Source: Acidovorax radicis (GTDB lineage Bacteria > Pseudomonadota > Gammaproteobacteria > Burkholderiales > Burkholderiaceae_C). Taken from it: 64,000 nucleotides of DNA. A program made the translations under genes and the position numbers. The notes beneath the pieces were generated by a model. The model made no database searches, was not told the DNA's origin, and saw only the letters and a program-made list of their open reading frames with translations. The stretch spans positions 3,782,001 to 3,846,000 of the forward strand of contig NZ_CP075184.1 in assembly GCF_020510705.1 (NCBI RefSeq), read 5' to 3'. Of the stretch, positions 887 to 59,604 are shown piece after piece (positions within the stretch are counted from its first letter, which is position 1; each line of letters opens with the position of its first letter).

Positions 887-1020
887 TCGCCTGGGCCCAT
901 GGGCGCCACCTCTCGGGGCGCACGCCCTCAGCGGCCCGGCTAAGCCGCTGGCACTGGCCCGGATTGGGCCGGGCCGGACCGGTCCGTACCGGTCTGAGTC
1001 GCACTAATTTTAAAGAAAAT

Positions 1021-1070
1021 GGCTGCTAGCGCTTACTGCATAAGTGCTAGCAGCTATATTTTTTATAGCA
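1021..1070. repeat. dispersed AGCGCTT palindromic repeat, copy 1
   Basis: The sequence GCTAGCGCTTA, a 5-nt loop, then TAAGTGCTAGC forms an almost perfect hairpin, followed by an A/T-rich run ending TTTTTTATAG. It lies between the convergent Bug and folK genes and could act as a terminator for either. It belongs to the same repeat family as the copies near 11.9, 12.0, 14.5, 23.5, 28.1, 33.6, 41.8, 57.6 and 59.2 kb. Confidence 0.75.
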
Positions 1071-1083
1071 CACCTGCGCGCGA

Positions 1084-11772: not shown

Positions 11773-11869
11773 GAATGAAAAGGGTCCGGGGCCGGAATGG
11801 CCAGATCAGGGAAAACCCCAATCACCTTAACAGTTTCTCGTGGCTGCTGCTGGTTGGCGCTGACCGCTA

Positions 11870-11920
11870 CTTTTTTCATAGCTGGTACCGCTTGATGCAC
11901 AAGCGCCAGCAGCACTTTTT
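11870..11920. repeat. dispersed AGCGCTT palindromic repeat, copy 2
   Basis: A degenerate copy: TTTTTTCATAGCTGGTACCG followed by CTTGATGCACAAGCGCCAGCAGC. It keeps the TAGCT and the inverted CGCTT...AAGCG core. It lies in the 306-base gap between the esterase and the isochorismatase-fold gene. Confidence 0.6.
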
Positions 11921-12024
11921 CTTTGTAAAAAATTAGCAGGCCACGGATCACCGCCTTTTGCAGCCCGATGGTTAATCATGGCTCAAAATGATCGACTATT
12001 GTCTGCACCGGGACGGACTCCAGC

Positions 12025-14372: not shown

Positions 14373-14447
14373 AAAAATAGCGCGCCGACGTCAGGCAGGA
14401 AGAGAGATCGCTGTTTTGGCCTGGCCTGGTTTGGCTTGGTCTTTTTT

Positions 14448-14490
14448 GGCCTCTAGCTCTTTACCAACAAGCGCCAGGTGCTATCAAAAA
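14448..14490. repeat. dispersed AGCGCTT palindromic repeat, copy 4
   Basis: The sequence GGCCTCTAGCTCTTTACC, then AACAAGCGCCAGGTGCTATCAAAA keeps the GGCCTCTAGC end and the GCTATCAAAA end of the family. It lies between the convergent glxA-type gene and ppk2, and the 14373-14588 gap holds nothing else recognisable. Confidence 0.7.
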
Positions 14491-14588
14491 CATATCAAAA
14501 TCAGCATACCCCGCGACGCGACCCCACAACGTTCACACCTGCCTGGCACCTGCGGGCGATCGTCGCGATGCTCTGGCTTTTAGTGCGC

Positions 14589-22941: not shown

Positions 22942-23862
22942 ATGAAACATTACCTGCAGTTCAACGACCTCACCGCCGACGAATACACCTACCTGTTCGA
23001 GCGCGCCGCGCTCATCAAGAAGAAGTTCAAGGCCTACGAAAAGCACCACCCGCTGGTGGACCGCACGCTGGCCATGATCTTCGAGAAGGCCAGCACGCGC
23101 ACGCGCGTGAGTTTCGAGGCGGGCATGTACCAGCTCGGCGGCAGCGTGGTGCACCTGACCACGGGCGACAGCCAGCTGGGCCGCGCCGAGCCGATCGAAG
23201 ACAGTGCCAAGGTCATCAGCCGCATGGTGGACCTGGTGATGATCCGCACCTACGAACAGACCAAGATCGAGGACTTTGCCGCCAACTCGCGCGTGCCCGT
23301 CATCAACGGTCTGACCAACGAATACCACCCCTGCCAGATCCTCGCCGACATCTTCACCTTCATCGAGCACCGAGGCTCCATCCAGGGCAAGACGGTGGCG
23401 TGGGTGGGCGATGGCAACAACATGGCCAACACCTGGCTGCAGGCCGCATCGCTGCTGGGCTTCAAGGTGCATGTGAGCACCCCCAGTGGCTACGAAGTTG
23501 ATGAGAAATTGGCCGCAGGCGCTGGTGGAATAAGCGCTGATAGCTATCAATTTTTTAGCAACCCACTCGCAGCCTGCCAGGGTGCCGACCTGGTCACCAC
23601 CGACGTGTGGACCAGCATGGGCTACGAAGCCGAGAACGAAGAACGCAAAAAAGCGTTTGCCGACTGGTGCGTGGACACCGAAATGATGGCCGCCGCCAAG
23701 CCCGACGCCCTGTTCATGCACTGCCTGCCCGCCCACCGCGGTGAAGAGGTGGAGGCCGACGTGATCGACGGGCCGCAGTCGGTTGTCTGGGATGAGGCAG
23801 AAAACAGGATGCATGTGCAAAAGGCACTGATGGAGTACCTTTTGCTGGGCCGGGTGAACTGA
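22942..23862 (+). CDS. argF: ornithine carbamoyltransferase
   Basis: ArgF joins carbamoyl phosphate and ornithine to make citrulline. The 306-residue product has the carbamoyl-phosphate loop EKASTRTRVSF, the HPCQ-equivalent NEYHPCQILADIFT, the ornithine-side DVWTSMGYE and the catalytic HCLPAHRGEEV. Between about residues 190 and 205 (AGAGGISADSYQFFSN) the DNA is a copy of the dispersed AGCGCTT repeat, with codons such as ATA, TTT, TTT that are unlike the surrounding gene. This segment falls in a loop between the conserved blocks VSTPSGYEV and GADLVTTDVW, so activity should be kept. Confidence 0.96.
   Translation: MKHYLQFNDLTADEYTYLFERAALIKKKFKAYEKHHPLVDRTLAMIFEKASTRTRVSFEAGMYQLGGSVVHLTTGDSQLGRAEPIEDSAKVISRMVDLVMIRTYEQTKIEDFAANSRVPVINGLTNEYHPCQILADIFTFIEHRGSIQGKTVAWVGDGNNMANTWLQAASLLGFKVHVSTPSGYEVDEKLAAGAGGISADSYQFFSNPLAACQGADLVTTDVWTSMGYEAENEERKKAFADWCVDTEMMAAAKPDALFMHCLPAHRGEEVEADVIDGPQSVVWDEAENRMHVQKALMEYLLLGRVN
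23511..23556. repeat. dispersed AGCGCTT palindromic repeat, copy 5, inside argF
   Basis: Read on the minus strand this is AATTGATAGCTATCAGCGC, TTATTCC, then ACCAGCGCCTGCGGCC. It shares TTGATAGCTATCA-R-CGCTTA with the copy at 59.2 kb and the GGCC end with the copies at 14.4 and 28.1 kb. It is translated in frame within argF. Confidence 0.75.
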
Positions 23863-27979: not shown

Positions 27980-28118
27980 CCCCCCTGTGCCGCTTCGCGT
28001 CACCCCCCCAAAGGGGACGCCACCCGAGACCCGGCAAAGCCGGTTCCACGGTGGCACTGGTATCAGCAGCATCGCTGTATTGCAGGGATGCCGCCCGATA
28101 AAAATTTCAAACCTTTTT

Positions 28119-28161
28119 GGCCTCTAGCGCTTATCCCATAAGCGCTACCAGCTATCAAAAC
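28119..28161. repeat. dispersed AGCGCTT palindromic repeat, copy 6
   Basis: The clearest copy: GGCCTCTAGCGCTTAT, CCC, ATAAGCGCTACCAGC, TATCAAAAC. The AGCGCTTAT and ATAAGCGCT arms pair perfectly around three bases. It lies between kynB and kynU, 24 bases before the kynU start. Confidence 0.85.
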
Positions 28162-28184
28162 AGAAGTAACTGACCTTGACCGCC

Positions 28185-33528: not shown

Positions 33529-33614
33529 TCCGCGAAGACTGGGTGCTGGCGCCGCCCTGGCGCCACATTGGTCCCCATCAGCCCCGCACGCCATTTCTGC
33601 TAAAAATTAGAAGA

Positions 33615-33667
33615 AAACAGGCTGTAGCGCTTATGAATAAAGCGCAAGCAGCTACACATTCAATAGC
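33615..33667. repeat. dispersed AGCGCTT palindromic repeat, copy 7
   Basis: The sequence GCTGTAGCGCTTATGAATAA, then AGCGCAAGCAGCTAC, with A/T-rich flanks ending CAATAGCAAA. It sits in the short gap between the convergent MFS and monooxygenase genes, where it may help end transcription. Confidence 0.75.
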
Positions 33668-33670
33668 AAA

Positions 33671-34894
33671 CTACAGCGAACTCGCCCCCGCGCCATCGCC
33701 CCGGTACAACCACGGCACGTCCAGCAGGCGGGCGCCCAGCAGGCGCAGCGACAGATCGCGGCCCCAGCGCACGGGGCCCGTGGCGTGGAAGATGCGCCCG
33801 TTGCGGGTGGAGCGGGCCTGCACCCGCGCGTTGCGCTGCCAGCGGTTGAGTGCATAACGCGTAAGGCGCAGCGGCATATCCAGGTCGTGCATGGCCAGCG
33901 CGCGCTGCAGCTCGGCCGCGTCTTCAATGGCCATGCCGGCCCCTTGCGCAAGGTAAGGGCGCATAGGGTGGGCCGCATCGCCGAGCAGCGCCACCACGCC
34001 ACGTGCCATCTCGCTGGCGCCGCGCACCGGTGGCCGGTCGCACAAGGGCCACAGGCGCCAGCCCGGGTTGCCCACGGGGCCGCCATGGTCGGTCACGCTG
34101 CGCACCAGGTCTTGCAATGCGGTACAGGTGCCTTGCAGGGCATGTTCGAGGTCCGCCGCATTGGCACTGTGGTCCCAGCTCTCCAGGTTTTGGGGTGCCG
34201 GGCCTTGCACGATGACTACCAGGTTTTGCAGTTCGCCCCGGCGCACAGGGTATTGCACCGCATGCAGCCGGGGGCCCAACCACGCAGTGACCTGGGCCGT
34301 GCGCAGCGCCTCGGGCAGCGCGTGCTGGGGCACCATGGCGCGGTAGGCCAGGTGGCCCGTCACCCGGGGCGCCGTGGAGCCGAGCAGTTGTGCGCGCGTG
34401 CGGCTCCAGAGGCCGTCGGCGCCGATGAGCGCATCCCCCTCCACCTCTTTGCCCCGGCTGGTGCGCACCGTGACGACGTCGTCGGCATCGACGAAACGCT
34501 CGATCGCCTGGTCAAGATGCAGTTGTGTCTGGGTGCCGTCCGTCACCGCGGCCAGCAACAGGCCATGCAGATCAGCGCGGTGGATGGTGGCATAGGCGGC
34601 GCCATACCGATCGACCGCCGTGGTCCCCAGCGGCATGGCGCCCAGCTCTTTGCCGCTGACGGCATTGCGCACCTGCAAGCGCGTGGGAAACGCCGCCACG
34701 GATTGCAGCGCCTGCTGCAACCCCCAGGCCTGCAGCCGCCGCACCACGTTGGGCCCGATCTGCACGCCCGCACCCACTTCGCTGAAAGCGGTGGCCCGTT
34801 CGTACAACCGCACATCCAATCCCGCACGCGACGCACCCAGGGCCGCCGCCAGGCCGCCAATGCCACCGCCAGCGATCAGCACCTGTTTCTTCAT
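33671..34894 (-). CDS. FAD-dependent aromatic-ring monooxygenase
   Basis: The 407-residue flavoprotein has the Rossmann fingerprint VLIAGGGIGGLAAALGASRAG, ending in the acidic residue of RLYERA, the DG motif LIGADGLWSRTRAQL and the GD motif VALLGDAAHPMRPYLAQGAGMAIEDAAEL. This is the class A hydroxylase family that includes salicylate and 3-hydroxybenzoate 6-hydroxylases. The exact substrate is open; the nearby kynurenine genes supply anthranilate but are 3 kb away on the other strand. The start at 34894 (MKKQVLIAGGG) is clear because the fingerprint follows at once. Confidence 0.88.
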   Translation of the reverse strand: MKKQVLIAGGGIGGLAAALGASRAGLDVRLYERATAFSEVGAGVQIGPNVVRRLQAWGLQQALQSVAAFPTRLQVRNAVSGKELGAMPLGTTAVDRYGAAYATIHRADLHGLLLAAVTDGTQTQLHLDQAIERFVDADDVVTVRTSRGKEVEGDALIGADGLWSRTRAQLLGSTAPRVTGHLAYRAMVPQHALPEALRTAQVTAWLGPRLHAVQYPVRRGELQNLVVIVQGPAPQNLESWDHSANAADLEHALQGTCTALQDLVRSVTDHGGPVGNPGWRLWPLCDRPPVRGASEMARGVVALLGDAAHPMRPYLAQGAGMAIEDAAELQRALAMHDLDMPLRLTRYALNRWQRNARVQARSTRNGRIFHATGPVRWGRDLSLRLLGARLLDVPWLYRGDGAGASSL

Positions 34895-41019: not shown

Positions 41020-43971
41020 TCACGCTTGCAGCAACTGGCGCAGGACAAACGGCAGGATGCCCCCTGCCTGGAAGTAGTCCACCTCAATCGGTGTGTCGAT
41101 GCGCAGCGTCACCGTGACCTCCTGGCGCGTGCCGTCGCCGCGGTGGATCACCAGCTGCGCATCGCTTCGTGGCGTGAGCGCGGCATCGGGCACCACGTCA
41201 ATGACTTCGTTGCCCGACAGGCCCAGGGATTCCCACGAATCACCCGCCTTGAACTGCAGGGGCAACACACCCATGCCCACCAGATTGGAGCGGTGGATAC
41301 GTTCAAAGCTCCTGGCCACCACGGCCTTGATGCCCAGCAACTGCGTGCCCTTGGCGGCCCAGTCGCGGCTCGAACCCGTGCCGTACTCTTCGCCCGCAAA
41401 AATCACCGTGGGCGTTCCCTGTGCCATGTATTGCATGGCCGCATCGAAGATGAACATCTTCTCGCCCTGCAGCGCGCCCTCGTTCTGGAACACCGTCACG
41501 CCGCCCTCCTCGCGCGAGCCATCGGCCGTGGCCGGAATCATGAGGTTCTTGATGCGCACGTTGGCAAAGGTGCCGCGCATCATCACGTCGTGGTTGCCAC
41601 GGCGCGCGCCATAGCTGTTGAAATCGGCCTTCGCCACCCCGTGCTGCACCAGCCACTGGCCTGCCGGCGAGCTTTCCTTGATGGAGCCTGCGGGCGAGAT
41701 GTGGTCGGTAGTGATGGAGTCGCCAAACAACGCCATGATGCGCGCGCCATTCACAGACGGAAGTTTGACGTCATTTTGGCCTCCAGCGCTTTTATCATCT
41801 GCGCCAGCAGCTACGTTTTTAATAGCGAACTGTGCAAAAAACGGTGGCTCGGCGATATAGGTGCTGCCAGGCCAGGTGTAGGCGTTACCGCTCACACCCT
41901 TGATCTTTTCCCACAGCTTGCCGGGCTCGGTGGTGACCTTGGCATAGTTTTCGCGGAAAGCCTTGCCCTTCATGGCGTACTTCATCAATGACTGGATCTC
42001 GTCGCTGGTCGGCCAGATGTCGCCCAGGTAGATGTCCTTGCCACCTTTGCCTTTGCCCACGGGCTCGGTCATCAGGTCCTTGAGCACCGTGCCCGCGATG
42101 GCATAGGCCACCACCAGCGGCGGGCTGGCCAGGAAGTTGGCCTTGATGTTGGGGTGGATCCGGGCTTCGAAATTGCGATTGCCAGAGAGCACCGCAGCAC
42201 ATACCAGGTCGTTGCCGGTAATGACTTCATTGAGCTCAGGCGTCAGGTCGCCCGCATTGCCGATGCAGGTGGTGCACCCGTAGCCGGCCAGGGCAAAGCC
42301 CAGCTTCTCCAGGTAAGGCATCAAACCGGTTTCGGTGAGGTACTCGGTCACGATGCGCGAGCCCGGCGCCAGCGAGGTCTTGATGTGCGGCTGCACCTTG
42401 AGACCTGCCTCCACCGCCTTTTTGGCCAGCAGGCCCGCGGCCAACAACACGCTGGGGTTGCTGGTGTTGGTGCAGCTGGTGATGGCGGCAATCAGCACAT
42501 CGCCATTGCCGACGGTGGGGTCGGCACCTTTGGCGGGCATAACGGCTGCGGCATCGGCGTGGGCCGTGGCCAGCGCGGGTTTGTTGCTTTCCATCTCGGC
42601 CACAAAACGCGGTGCGCCTGCAGGAGCTGGCTTGTCCGTGGGAGCGGCCGCCTGCACCACGTCCTGGCCCCGGTGGATATGGTGGCGGGTATGCAGCAGC
42701 TCGGCCGGGCGGTTAAAGCCGTTTTGTGCATTCGGCTGGCTGAACAGGTCGGCAAACTGGCTGCTGACCTTGCCCAGTTCGATGCGGTCTTGTGGACGCT
42801 TGGGGCCGGCCAGACTGGGAGTGACACTGCCGAGGTCAAGTTTCACGACCTGCGAATAGTCCACCTCACCCGCCAGCGGCACACCAAACAGCCCCTGGGC
42901 CTTGAAGTAAGCCTCAAAGGTCTCGATCTCGCCCTTGGTGCGGCCCGTGCCCTGAAAGTAGTCGATGGTCTTTTCATCGACCGGGAAGAAACCCATCGTG
43001 GCGCCATATTCGGGCGCCATGTTGCCAATGGTGGCGCGGTCGGGCAGAGAGAGGGTGCGCGTGCCTGGACCAAAGAACTCGACGAACTTGCCCACCACCT
43101 TGTGCTGGCGAAGCAGTTCGGTCACGGTCAGCACGAGGTCCGTGGCCGTGACACCTTCGCGCAGTTGCCCGGTCATCTCGAAGCCCACCACATCGGGCGT
43201 CAGGAAATACACGGGCTGGCCCAGCATGGCGGCCTCGGCCTCGATACCGCCCACGCCCCAGCCCACCACGCCGATGCCATTGATCATGGTGGTGTGGCTA
43301 TCGGTGCCAACCAGCGTATCCGGGTAGTAAATGCTGTCCTTGCCCTTGTGCACGCCACGCGCCAGGTATTCGAGATTGACCTGGTGCACGATGCCAAAGC
43401 CCGGCGGCACCACGCGAAAGGTGTCAAACGCCTGCATCCCCCATTTCATGAACTCATAGCGTTCGCGGTTACGCTGGAACTCAAGCTTCATGTTCAGGTC
43501 GAGCGAATTCTTCTTGCCGTAGTAGTCCACCATGATGGAGTGATCGACCACCAGATCCACCGGCACCAGCGGTTCGATCTTTTTAGGGTTTTTGCCCAGG
43601 CGCGCGGCCACACTGCGCATGGCGGCCAGGTCCGCCAGCAGCGGCACCCCGGTGAAATCCTGCAGCACCACACGCGAGACAACAAAGGGGATCTCGTCCT
43701 TGCGTCCGGCATTCGGTGCCCAGTGCGCCAGTTGCTGCACATGCTCGGCAGTGACCTTGTGGCCATCACAGTTGCGCAACACCGATTCGAGCACGATGCG
43801 AATGGACACCGGCAGTCGGTTGATTTGCGGGAACTGCCGGGCCAGCGTGGGCAGTGAATAGAAGCGCCCCTCCTTGCCAGACGCCGTCTTGAATTTTTTG
43901 AGCGTATTACCGAACGCGTGGCGTATGGGTTTGGCAGGCGATGAGACTACCGGCTTGGACGACGAGGCCAT
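41020..43971 (-). CDS. acnA: aconitate hydratase A
   Basis: Aconitase interconverts citrate and isocitrate with a [4Fe-4S] cluster. The 983-residue product has its cluster cysteines at 500 (ITSCTNTSN), 566 and 569 ([10 protein letters not shown]), and the substrate-site blocks [12 protein letters not shown] and [32 protein letters not shown]. It is about 90 residues longer than E. coli AcnA; most of the excess is an Ala/Pro-rich stretch at about 412-487, before the first Cys. Residues about 717-731 ([15 protein letters not shown]) come from a dispersed repeat. AAGGAG stands before the ATG at 43971, and a terminator follows the stop. Confidence 0.96.
41778..41820. repeat. dispersed AGCGCTT palindromic repeat, copy 8, inside acnA
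   Basis: The sequence GGCCTCCAGCGCTTTTATC, then ATCTGCGCCAGCAGCTACG, TTTTT aligns along its whole length with the intergenic copy at 28.1 kb. It is read in frame on the minus strand as part of acnA, in a variable segment between FFAQFA and [13 protein letters not shown]. Confidence 0.78.
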
Positions 43972-44088
43972 GGCGAACTCCTTTGAAGCACAACAGCTTC
44001 TATTCTGGCACCTCCACACAATGGCGCCATTTAGGGTTGAACATGGGGGGCTCGCCCAAGACCAACCCCAAGGCGCTGGCATCCTGAG

Positions 44089-44354
44089 AACCTGTTCAAA
44101 ATCTTTTCGGAGATCGCATTGGAGTGCAATCGGGATGAGTGGATGCTTCGGATGCGCAGCATGGGCTCATGCCCATGCAAGCAGCCGGGGCGTCCAATCG
44201 CCCGATTTCACTCCAACCCTTCGGGCAAGTGCCTTGACGGGCGGTCTGTGGCGTTGCGGCGCTTGTGGATAGCCGGGCTATCCACTGCGCACCGCGCCTA
44301 GCATCCCATCCCGGCAAGGTACTTGTGCGACCCTGAAAAGATCTTGAACAGGTT
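44089..44354. mobile_element. 266-bp MITE-like element with 20-bp terminal inverted repeats
   Basis: The left end AACCTGTTCAAAATCTTTTC and the right end, read on the other strand, AACCTGTTCAAGATCTTTTC differ at one base. The element is flanked on both sides by CTGAG (44084-44088 and 44355-44359), a probable five-base target duplication. Inside are two hairpins, GCATGGGC/GCCCATGC and GTGGATAGCC/GGGCTATCCAC. It carries no transposase frame, so it would need an enzyme supplied in trans. It lies upstream of acnA. Confidence 0.8.
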
Positions 44355-59100: not shown

Positions 59101-59604
59101 TTAGCCCTCTATTGTCGCACCGCTGGCCCAAAACGCATTTTTTTGGTTTGCTGGCCTCGGCAACTGCACCGCGCGTTTGCCCTCCATCCAGAGAAATGCT
59201 ATTTTTTTGATAGCTATCAACGCTTACAAATAAAGCGCTTTCTGCACTTTTCTTGGAAATCCTTCAGCATGACCCGTCACTGCCGGGTTGTGGTAACCAA
59301 GCGTCTCGCCCCGATCTGGGCGAAGTTATTCATCGCCTTCAGGGCTGCTGCGGGGTGCGGGTGGGCCCGCGCGCCAAAACGCGCTCACGATAGCCCCGCC
59401 AGGTGCGCAGATCCTCGTTCAGCGCCCGCGCTGAACAACACCAAACGACACCATGCATGGAGCCCCAACACGGCCACCTGGCTCACGCGTGGCGCCAGCC
59501 AGGCGCCACCGCCGGTGCACATGGGACGGCCGGTGGCGCAAAGGGGCGCATAGGTGCGCATGGCCCATGGCTTCAAGAGCCTGTGCCGGCACTGGCCGAA
59601 CAGG
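59101..59604. other. 504-base gap with one repeat and no supported gene
   Basis: The first 150 bases hold the rhlE promoter region and copy 10 of the repeat. The rest (59251-59604) has frames on both strands, with none that I can link to a family. No RNA gene or terminator with a T-run was seen. Confidence 0.5.
59197..59250. repeat. dispersed AGCGCTT palindromic repeat, copy 10
   Basis: ATGCTATTTTTTTGATAGC, TATCAACGCTTACAAAT, AAAGCGCTTTCTGCAC. It shares the core TTGATAGCTATCA-R-CGCTTA with the copy inside argF. It lies about 100 bases before the rhlE start. Confidence 0.8.

Follow-up and report, generated by a model that had tools for sequence, protein, structure and literature searches.

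A 61-bp imperfectly palindromic repeat of Comamonadaceae read in frame within argF and other genes of Acidovorax radicis

The argF gene of Acidovorax radicis lies in the window (the whole stretch of 64,000 nucleotides analysed here, positions 3,782,001 to 3,846,000 of contig NZ_CP075184.1), together with members of a dispersed, AT-rich, imperfectly palindromic element of 61 bp that has many copies between genes (Table 1). One full-length copy lies inside argF itself. An earlier note on this DNA had proposed that an intergenic-type repeat is translated within ArgF, and this is borne out. With the argF copy held out, a profile made from a 61-column gapless alignment of 29 other copies matches it over all 61 positions (60.5 bits, E 8.1e-11). 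The bounds first proposed, 23511..23556 and residues of about 190-205, were too narrow: the copy spans 23504-23564 and residues 188-208, and the full-length match rules out a half-repeat. The intergenic copy with which the segment had been compared (28119-28161) does carry the element, at 28112-28172, but the exact string TTGATAGCTATCA is absent there.

The match belongs to one place in the gene, since nhmmer scores the argF loop at 49.6 bits, and nowhere else in argF above 3.5 bits. The 11-mer GATAGCTATCA occurs at two sites of the window (23538-23549 and 59208-59219), which give four matches with up to 1 mismatch because the sequence is nearly self-complementary; 0.11 would be expected. Synonymous recoding by local codon use reached the argF score in 0/500 trials, as did permutation of synonymous codons inside the segment with composition kept (0/500). 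The AT-rich codons singled out before (ATA, TTT, TTT) are present, and a chance likeness of such codons was weighed as an explanation. Given the recodings, the 11-mer expectation and the lack of a similar score elsewhere in argF, it is vanishingly improbable and we reject it. Nor do related ArgF proteins all share the residues on DNA that lacks the repeat, which the earlier note had named as the sign of chance. No Rfam family matches positions 23300-23800 of the window at E<=1. At the level of sequence, these comparisons establish that the argF segment is homologous to the repeat and is read in the frame of the gene.

Table 1. The argF gene and copies of the 61-bp element, with positions in the window unless another contig is named
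Feature	Position	Strand	Remarks
argF, ornithine carbamoyltransferase, 306 aa	22942..23862	+	PF02729, PF00185; best Foldseek match 4f2g, 63% identity
Full-length 61-bp element copy in argF	23504..23564	+	60.5 bits; ArgF residues 188-208, about EKLAAGAGGISADSYQFFSNP
Right arm of element (conserved)	23530..23549	+	ATAAGCGCTGATAGCTATCA
Intergenic copy, intact hairpin	28112..28172	+	49.7 bits; RNA fold z -3.86
Intergenic copy	59193..59253	-	41.2 bits
Intergenic copy	1014..1073	+	35.1 bits; gene bounds from codon-usage gene caller
Intergenic copy	11861..11921	-	32.9 bits; gene bounds from codon-usage gene caller
Intergenic copy between convergent genes	33612..33672	+	25.0 bits; gene bounds from codon-usage gene caller
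Diverged intergenic copy	14442..14501	+	20.7 bits; gene bounds from codon-usage gene caller
In-gene copy in cca	L027:1475-1535; own genome C1:685832-685892		
In-frame copies, batch 3/48			argF, FA_hydroxylase/YhhN protein, cca
In-frame copies, batch 5/61			purL, thiL, formate-dehydrogenase-like molybdopterin enzyme, dnaE2 (error-prone polymerase), patatin-like protein
In-frame copies, batch 4/41			uvrD, moeA, hrpA, biotin-carboxylase-type protein

When at most 3 mismatches are allowed, the 20-mer ATAAGCGCTGATAGCTATCA matches the 5.0-Mb genome at 66 places and its reversed control at none; a shorter core pattern has 225 matches. Comparison of 30 copies with their flanks shows that the family extends beyond the palindrome, and conservation fades at both ends of the 61 modelled columns. 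We examined 150 copies, a part of the family drawn from the 20-mer matches and a profile search, and this count is a lower bound because the profile search assigned scores to just 150 of the 2306 initial candidates. Their mean GC is 0.415, against 0.641 for the window. By a looser rule 14 of them are inside genes, and the 136 others stand between tandem (78), convergent (44) or divergent (8) genes or in an undecided context (6). The scarcity of copies between divergent genes hints at a role at gene 3' ends. A weak element-like stretch of 16.6 bits was also seen at 41771-41831 of the window, within a minus-strand gene (41023-44166).

The earlier note dealt with argF, but argF is not the only such gene. 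Of the 150 copies, 12 are in frame in genes with coding signal on both sides, as judged with a simple gene caller based on codon usage, for which the window was the training set; copies L193 and L270, inside genes by the looser rule only, are excluded from the 12. Among the hosts, cca, purL, thiL and moeA passed a curated NCBIfam cut-off, and uvrD, hrpA, dnaE2, the formate-dehydrogenase-like gene and the FA_hydroxylase/YhhN gene passed Pfam cut-offs, mostly with gene pieces scanned. The match of the patatin-like protein is below its cut-off, and the biotin-carboxylase-type protein passed none in the NCBIfam scan. The element is stop-free in frame R2 in 79 of the 150 copies, in F2 in 53 and in F0 in 21 (15, 5 and 2 for the other three frames), and the in-gene copies use frames in the same order (8 R2, 3 F2, 1 F0). 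Because two element frames are often stop-free, a copy entering a gene in either of them adds about 20 translatable residues, typically read as LIAxSAYPSSAxGQF in reverse-frame copies and KLASSAYPxSASSYQ in forward ones. Synonymous recoding reached the observed score in 0/500 trials for each of the 12. Codon permutation tied or beat it in five of the eleven copies other than argF, namely the formate-dehydrogenase-like (43/500), patatin-like (2) and cca, dnaE2 and hrpA (1 each) copies. As read from predicted frames, repeat DNA supplies part of the protein sequence in argF and at least eleven other genes, and the in-frame argF copy supports the earlier suggestion that the repeat contributes protein sequence to a biosynthetic enzyme.

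ArgF was found in 47 of 47 genomes of the genus, and its loop carries the element in 41 (13.5 to 52.7 bits). An insertion present only in some strains, for which the earlier note had proposed to check, is therefore ruled out. The genomes whose argF lacks the element (G001, G008, G013, G016, G020 and G044) are exactly those with 0-2 core matches genome-wide; the other 41 have 12-352. The reversed-pattern control matches in 3 of the 47 genomes (G004 1, G013 2, G023 1), so that the single core match of G013 is at chance level. Several of the matches listed for G017 read ATATGCGCT, not ATAAGCGCT, suggesting that the element has species-specific variants. On an unrooted genus tree all six element-poor genomes fall on one side (support 62). 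In a weak ArgF tree of 112 rows, made after removal of L077, L143 and L144, four of the six are nested inside the genus, with at least 10 changes of state. Similar residues are found in ArgF of some of these genomes, with EKLA..GSYQFFS in G016 and G044 and nearly so in G020 and G013. The nhmmer ArgF set comprised 116 loci, with L078 lost. That locus (G004:C58) is a further, more divergent piece of argF whose loop lacks the element; it lies on a small contig and may be a contaminant.

Across the family, the 20-base pattern occurs in 59 of 299 genomes and in 32 of 141 genera, own genus included, and the reversed control gives 1 match in 1 of the 299 genomes. For ArgF of other genera, 7 of 68 rows reach 10 bits, these rows being a selection from 138 genomes of other genera that had a match. 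Carriage by plasmids was rejected, as 1 of 72,556 plasmid records matches; the lone match, from Diaphorobacter, takes in the 3'-terminal 21 bases of cobN and the intergenic space that follows. Mobilisation by RAYT was likewise rejected, as presence and absence show no association. A Y1_Tnp match is found in 44 of the 47 genus genomes and in all six element-poor ones, which gives no link between the element and the Y1 transposase gene, and the three genomes that lack a Y1_Tnp match are rich in the element. Of six Y1 loci tested, one has element copies, that of the own genome. G046 has 37 Y1_Tnp matches, most with an identical score, as of an IS200/IS605-like element expanded in one species.

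Folded as RNA, the argF copy is no more stable than its shuffles (z -0.07), in contrast to the intergenic copy at 28112-28172 (Table 1). Another intergenic copy does not clearly beat shuffles on either strand (z -1.2 and -1.8), so loss of the hairpin is not special to argF; the three folds besides those of argF and 28112-28172 range from z -1.2 to -1.8. RNAalifold on 29 copies finds only 3 pairs.

In other genera, the plain form of ArgF seen most often is 3 residues shorter and uses GC-rich codons, EVDQSVAGIRSADSYKVFKDP against EVDEKLAAGAGGISADSYQFFSNP, and 4f2g lacks 3 residues at the segment by sequence alignment. A further form, VDEKLAFGGRQPRAGCYKVF, is as long as the element-bearing ArgF although its DNA lacks the repeat, and may be a fossil of the element. 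The length change in argF is 0 or +3 residues relative to element-free forms. In the ArgF model, which was built from 53 sequences and is of moderate quality (mean pLDDT 72; 78, 60 and 90 for residues 181-190, 191-200 and 201-210), the segment comprises a helix (188-192), a loop (193-198), one helical turn and a strand (202-205). The claim that a repeat landed in a surface loop thus needs amending: a loop is included and the frame is intact, but the modelled segment is more than a surface loop, taking in helix and strand, and with +3 residues at most there is no clean insertion. Therefore, the argF copy looks like a replacement, and by its sequence so does that in cca, where the length change is 0 to +4 residues relative to element-free genera. 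There, the element end covers the codons for LTINAIA, which are AT-rich synonyms of the GC-rich codons used in element-free genera; in this frame the element consensus encodes ITINLIA. Either the element entered cca where its ends already matched, or the codons were rewritten later. By the same kind of comparison, the moeA copy looks like an insertion. The distance between anchors in moeA is 8-14 residues in 6 of 15 parsed other-genus genomes and 30-47 in the other nine; in the genus it is 37-42 in 27 parsed loci (of 30) and 15-16 in four genomes. Two element-poor genomes nevertheless have long moeA loops (38 residues in G008, 28 in G001), encoded by GC-rich DNA with no element. In a third element-poor genome the linker of the biotin-carboxylase-type gene (L443, G020:C10) contains consecutive EP and AP repeats.

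Among element-rich genomes, the more copies a genome has in all, the better its in-gene copy at each orthologous site matches the element, with rho of 0.55 for argF (n 41), 0.72 for cca (n 30), 0.63 for moeA (n 29) and 0.51 for acc, the biotin-carboxylase-type gene (n 28). Partial on GC3, these become 0.47, 0.73, 0.58 and 0.41. Since the G000 consensus underlies the profile as well as the copy count, closeness to G000 may inflate the correlation. Independent contrasts on a 43-genome tree, which rests on the same genes and has partly weak supports, give 0.39 for argF, 0.54 for cca and 0.48 for moeA, the genes they cover. The sample comprised 47/47 argF, 33/36 cca, 35/38 moeA and 32/33 acc loci, the last three from part of the genomes, and three of the six element-poor genomes are in the cca row. 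The element is recognisable (at least 10 bits) in 41/41 argF, 28/29 moeA, 21/30 cca and 16/28 acc loci parsed from element-rich genomes. The trend is compatible with shared decay, gene conversion and drive alike.

The origin of the argF segment is probably an in-frame insertion of the element followed by local trimming. The segment would be an old copy of a 61-bp Comamonadaceae element that mostly sits between genes, mainly at their 3' ends. We infer that it entered argF before most of the genus radiated. It would have displaced most of an older helix-loop-strand stretch, with a net gain of 3 residues over the commonest plain form, and may since have persisted as protein sequence, with its palindrome lost to decay. 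A simple insertion does not predict the small or nil length change in argF and cca, nor the partial agreement of the residues that the element encodes with those of element-free relatives (SADSY in argF, LTINAIA in cca). The similar ArgF residues of element-poor genomes and the long moeA loops of G008 and G001 also speak against it. The small length change and the shared residues would be expected if gene conversion or another molecular drive had written element sequence onto codons that were already similar and were still pulling in-gene copies toward the consensus, and the synonymous AT-rich codons overlapping LTINAIA in cca fit such writing in place, as does the rise of in-gene match quality with copy number (rho 0.51-0.72; contrasts 0.39-0.54). 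We regard this account as doubtful, however, as moeA has a block of 21-29 residues that is present or absent, the shared G000 consensus may inflate the correlation, and the contrasts in element-rich genomes are only modestly one-sided (25/36, 17/29 and 18/28).

Alternatively, in-gene copies may be kept as a functional DNA or RNA signal, for instance one used in DNA uptake, bound by a protein or acting as a regulatory hairpin. Conserved copies are many, few lie between divergent genes (8, against 44 convergent and 78 tandem), and one of four distinct copies folded clearly beats shuffles. However, the argF copy is not that one. Uptake sequences are common in genes, where only 12-14 of the 150 copies are found here, and the genus includes genomes almost without the element, in which ArgF reads through. 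According to one study, some Acidovorax are naturally competent and none of those tested was transformed by DNA of other Acidovorax species (PMC4212676), which would suit an uptake signal. On balance, we judge a retained signal to be quite improbable, and insertion with trimming stays our preferred account of argF.

Palindromic repeats translated within genes are a known kind of system, and the closest precedents are the Rickettsia palindromic elements (RPE), which reportedly have a Wolbachia counterpart, and intragenic REPs. As described in the cited papers, RPE are palindromic, lie between genes and in frame inside unrelated conserved genes, and one insert-bearing product is active (PMC10969869, PMC2229807). 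The present element shares this double placement (12 of 150 copies in frame), but it measures 61 bp, not about 105-150 bp, belongs to a betaproteobacterial genus and not to obligate intracellular alphaproteobacteria, uses three frames, and in argF mostly replaces sequence and hardly lengthens it. GTAG/CGTC REPs are also short palindromes within coding regions, in several species, but are only 20-40 bp (PMC3733652), and our element shows no transposase link; the main text of that paper has no mention of Acidovorax, Comamona-, Delftia, Polaromonas or Rhodoferax. BRE, like our element, are dispersed in Comamonadaceae, and in Bordetella, with some copies in coding sequences (PMC3110155). Full-length Bordetella copies have 75-91 bp and average 69% GC (63.7-78.9%), and listed Acidovorax genomes have 1-4 copies. 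By this description, length and GC (61 bp, 41.5% GC) speak against the element being BRE, and its copies are far more numerous. ERIC of Enterobacterial genomes and Correia repeats of Neisseria are small repeats whose open frames are fused in frame to genes (PMC2229807), as here; by description they are longer (107-155 bp) and have other hosts. In the literature searched, with subscription papers mostly outside it, we found no description of the element family, of this host group, of the replacement of a core stretch or of the copy-number trend.

Palindromic repeats that code for protein are known chiefly from the intracellular Rickettsia, and here a distinct family occurs in conserved enzymes of a betaproteobacterial genus. 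It is possible, though unlikely, that a genome-wide process keeps the copies near one consensus and still rewrites those in genes, and that core-enzyme sequence follows repeat activity and not enzyme selection alone. If so, the loop and strand of ArgF, the LTINAIA codons of cca and the linkers of MoeA and the biotin-carboxylase protein would follow the activity of a repeat family. The many sister species and the element-poor relatives provide a natural comparison. Therefore, the route by which small repeats turn into protein sequence can be tested in this genus, as can the question whether copies in genes are free to drift or are kept alike across the genome.
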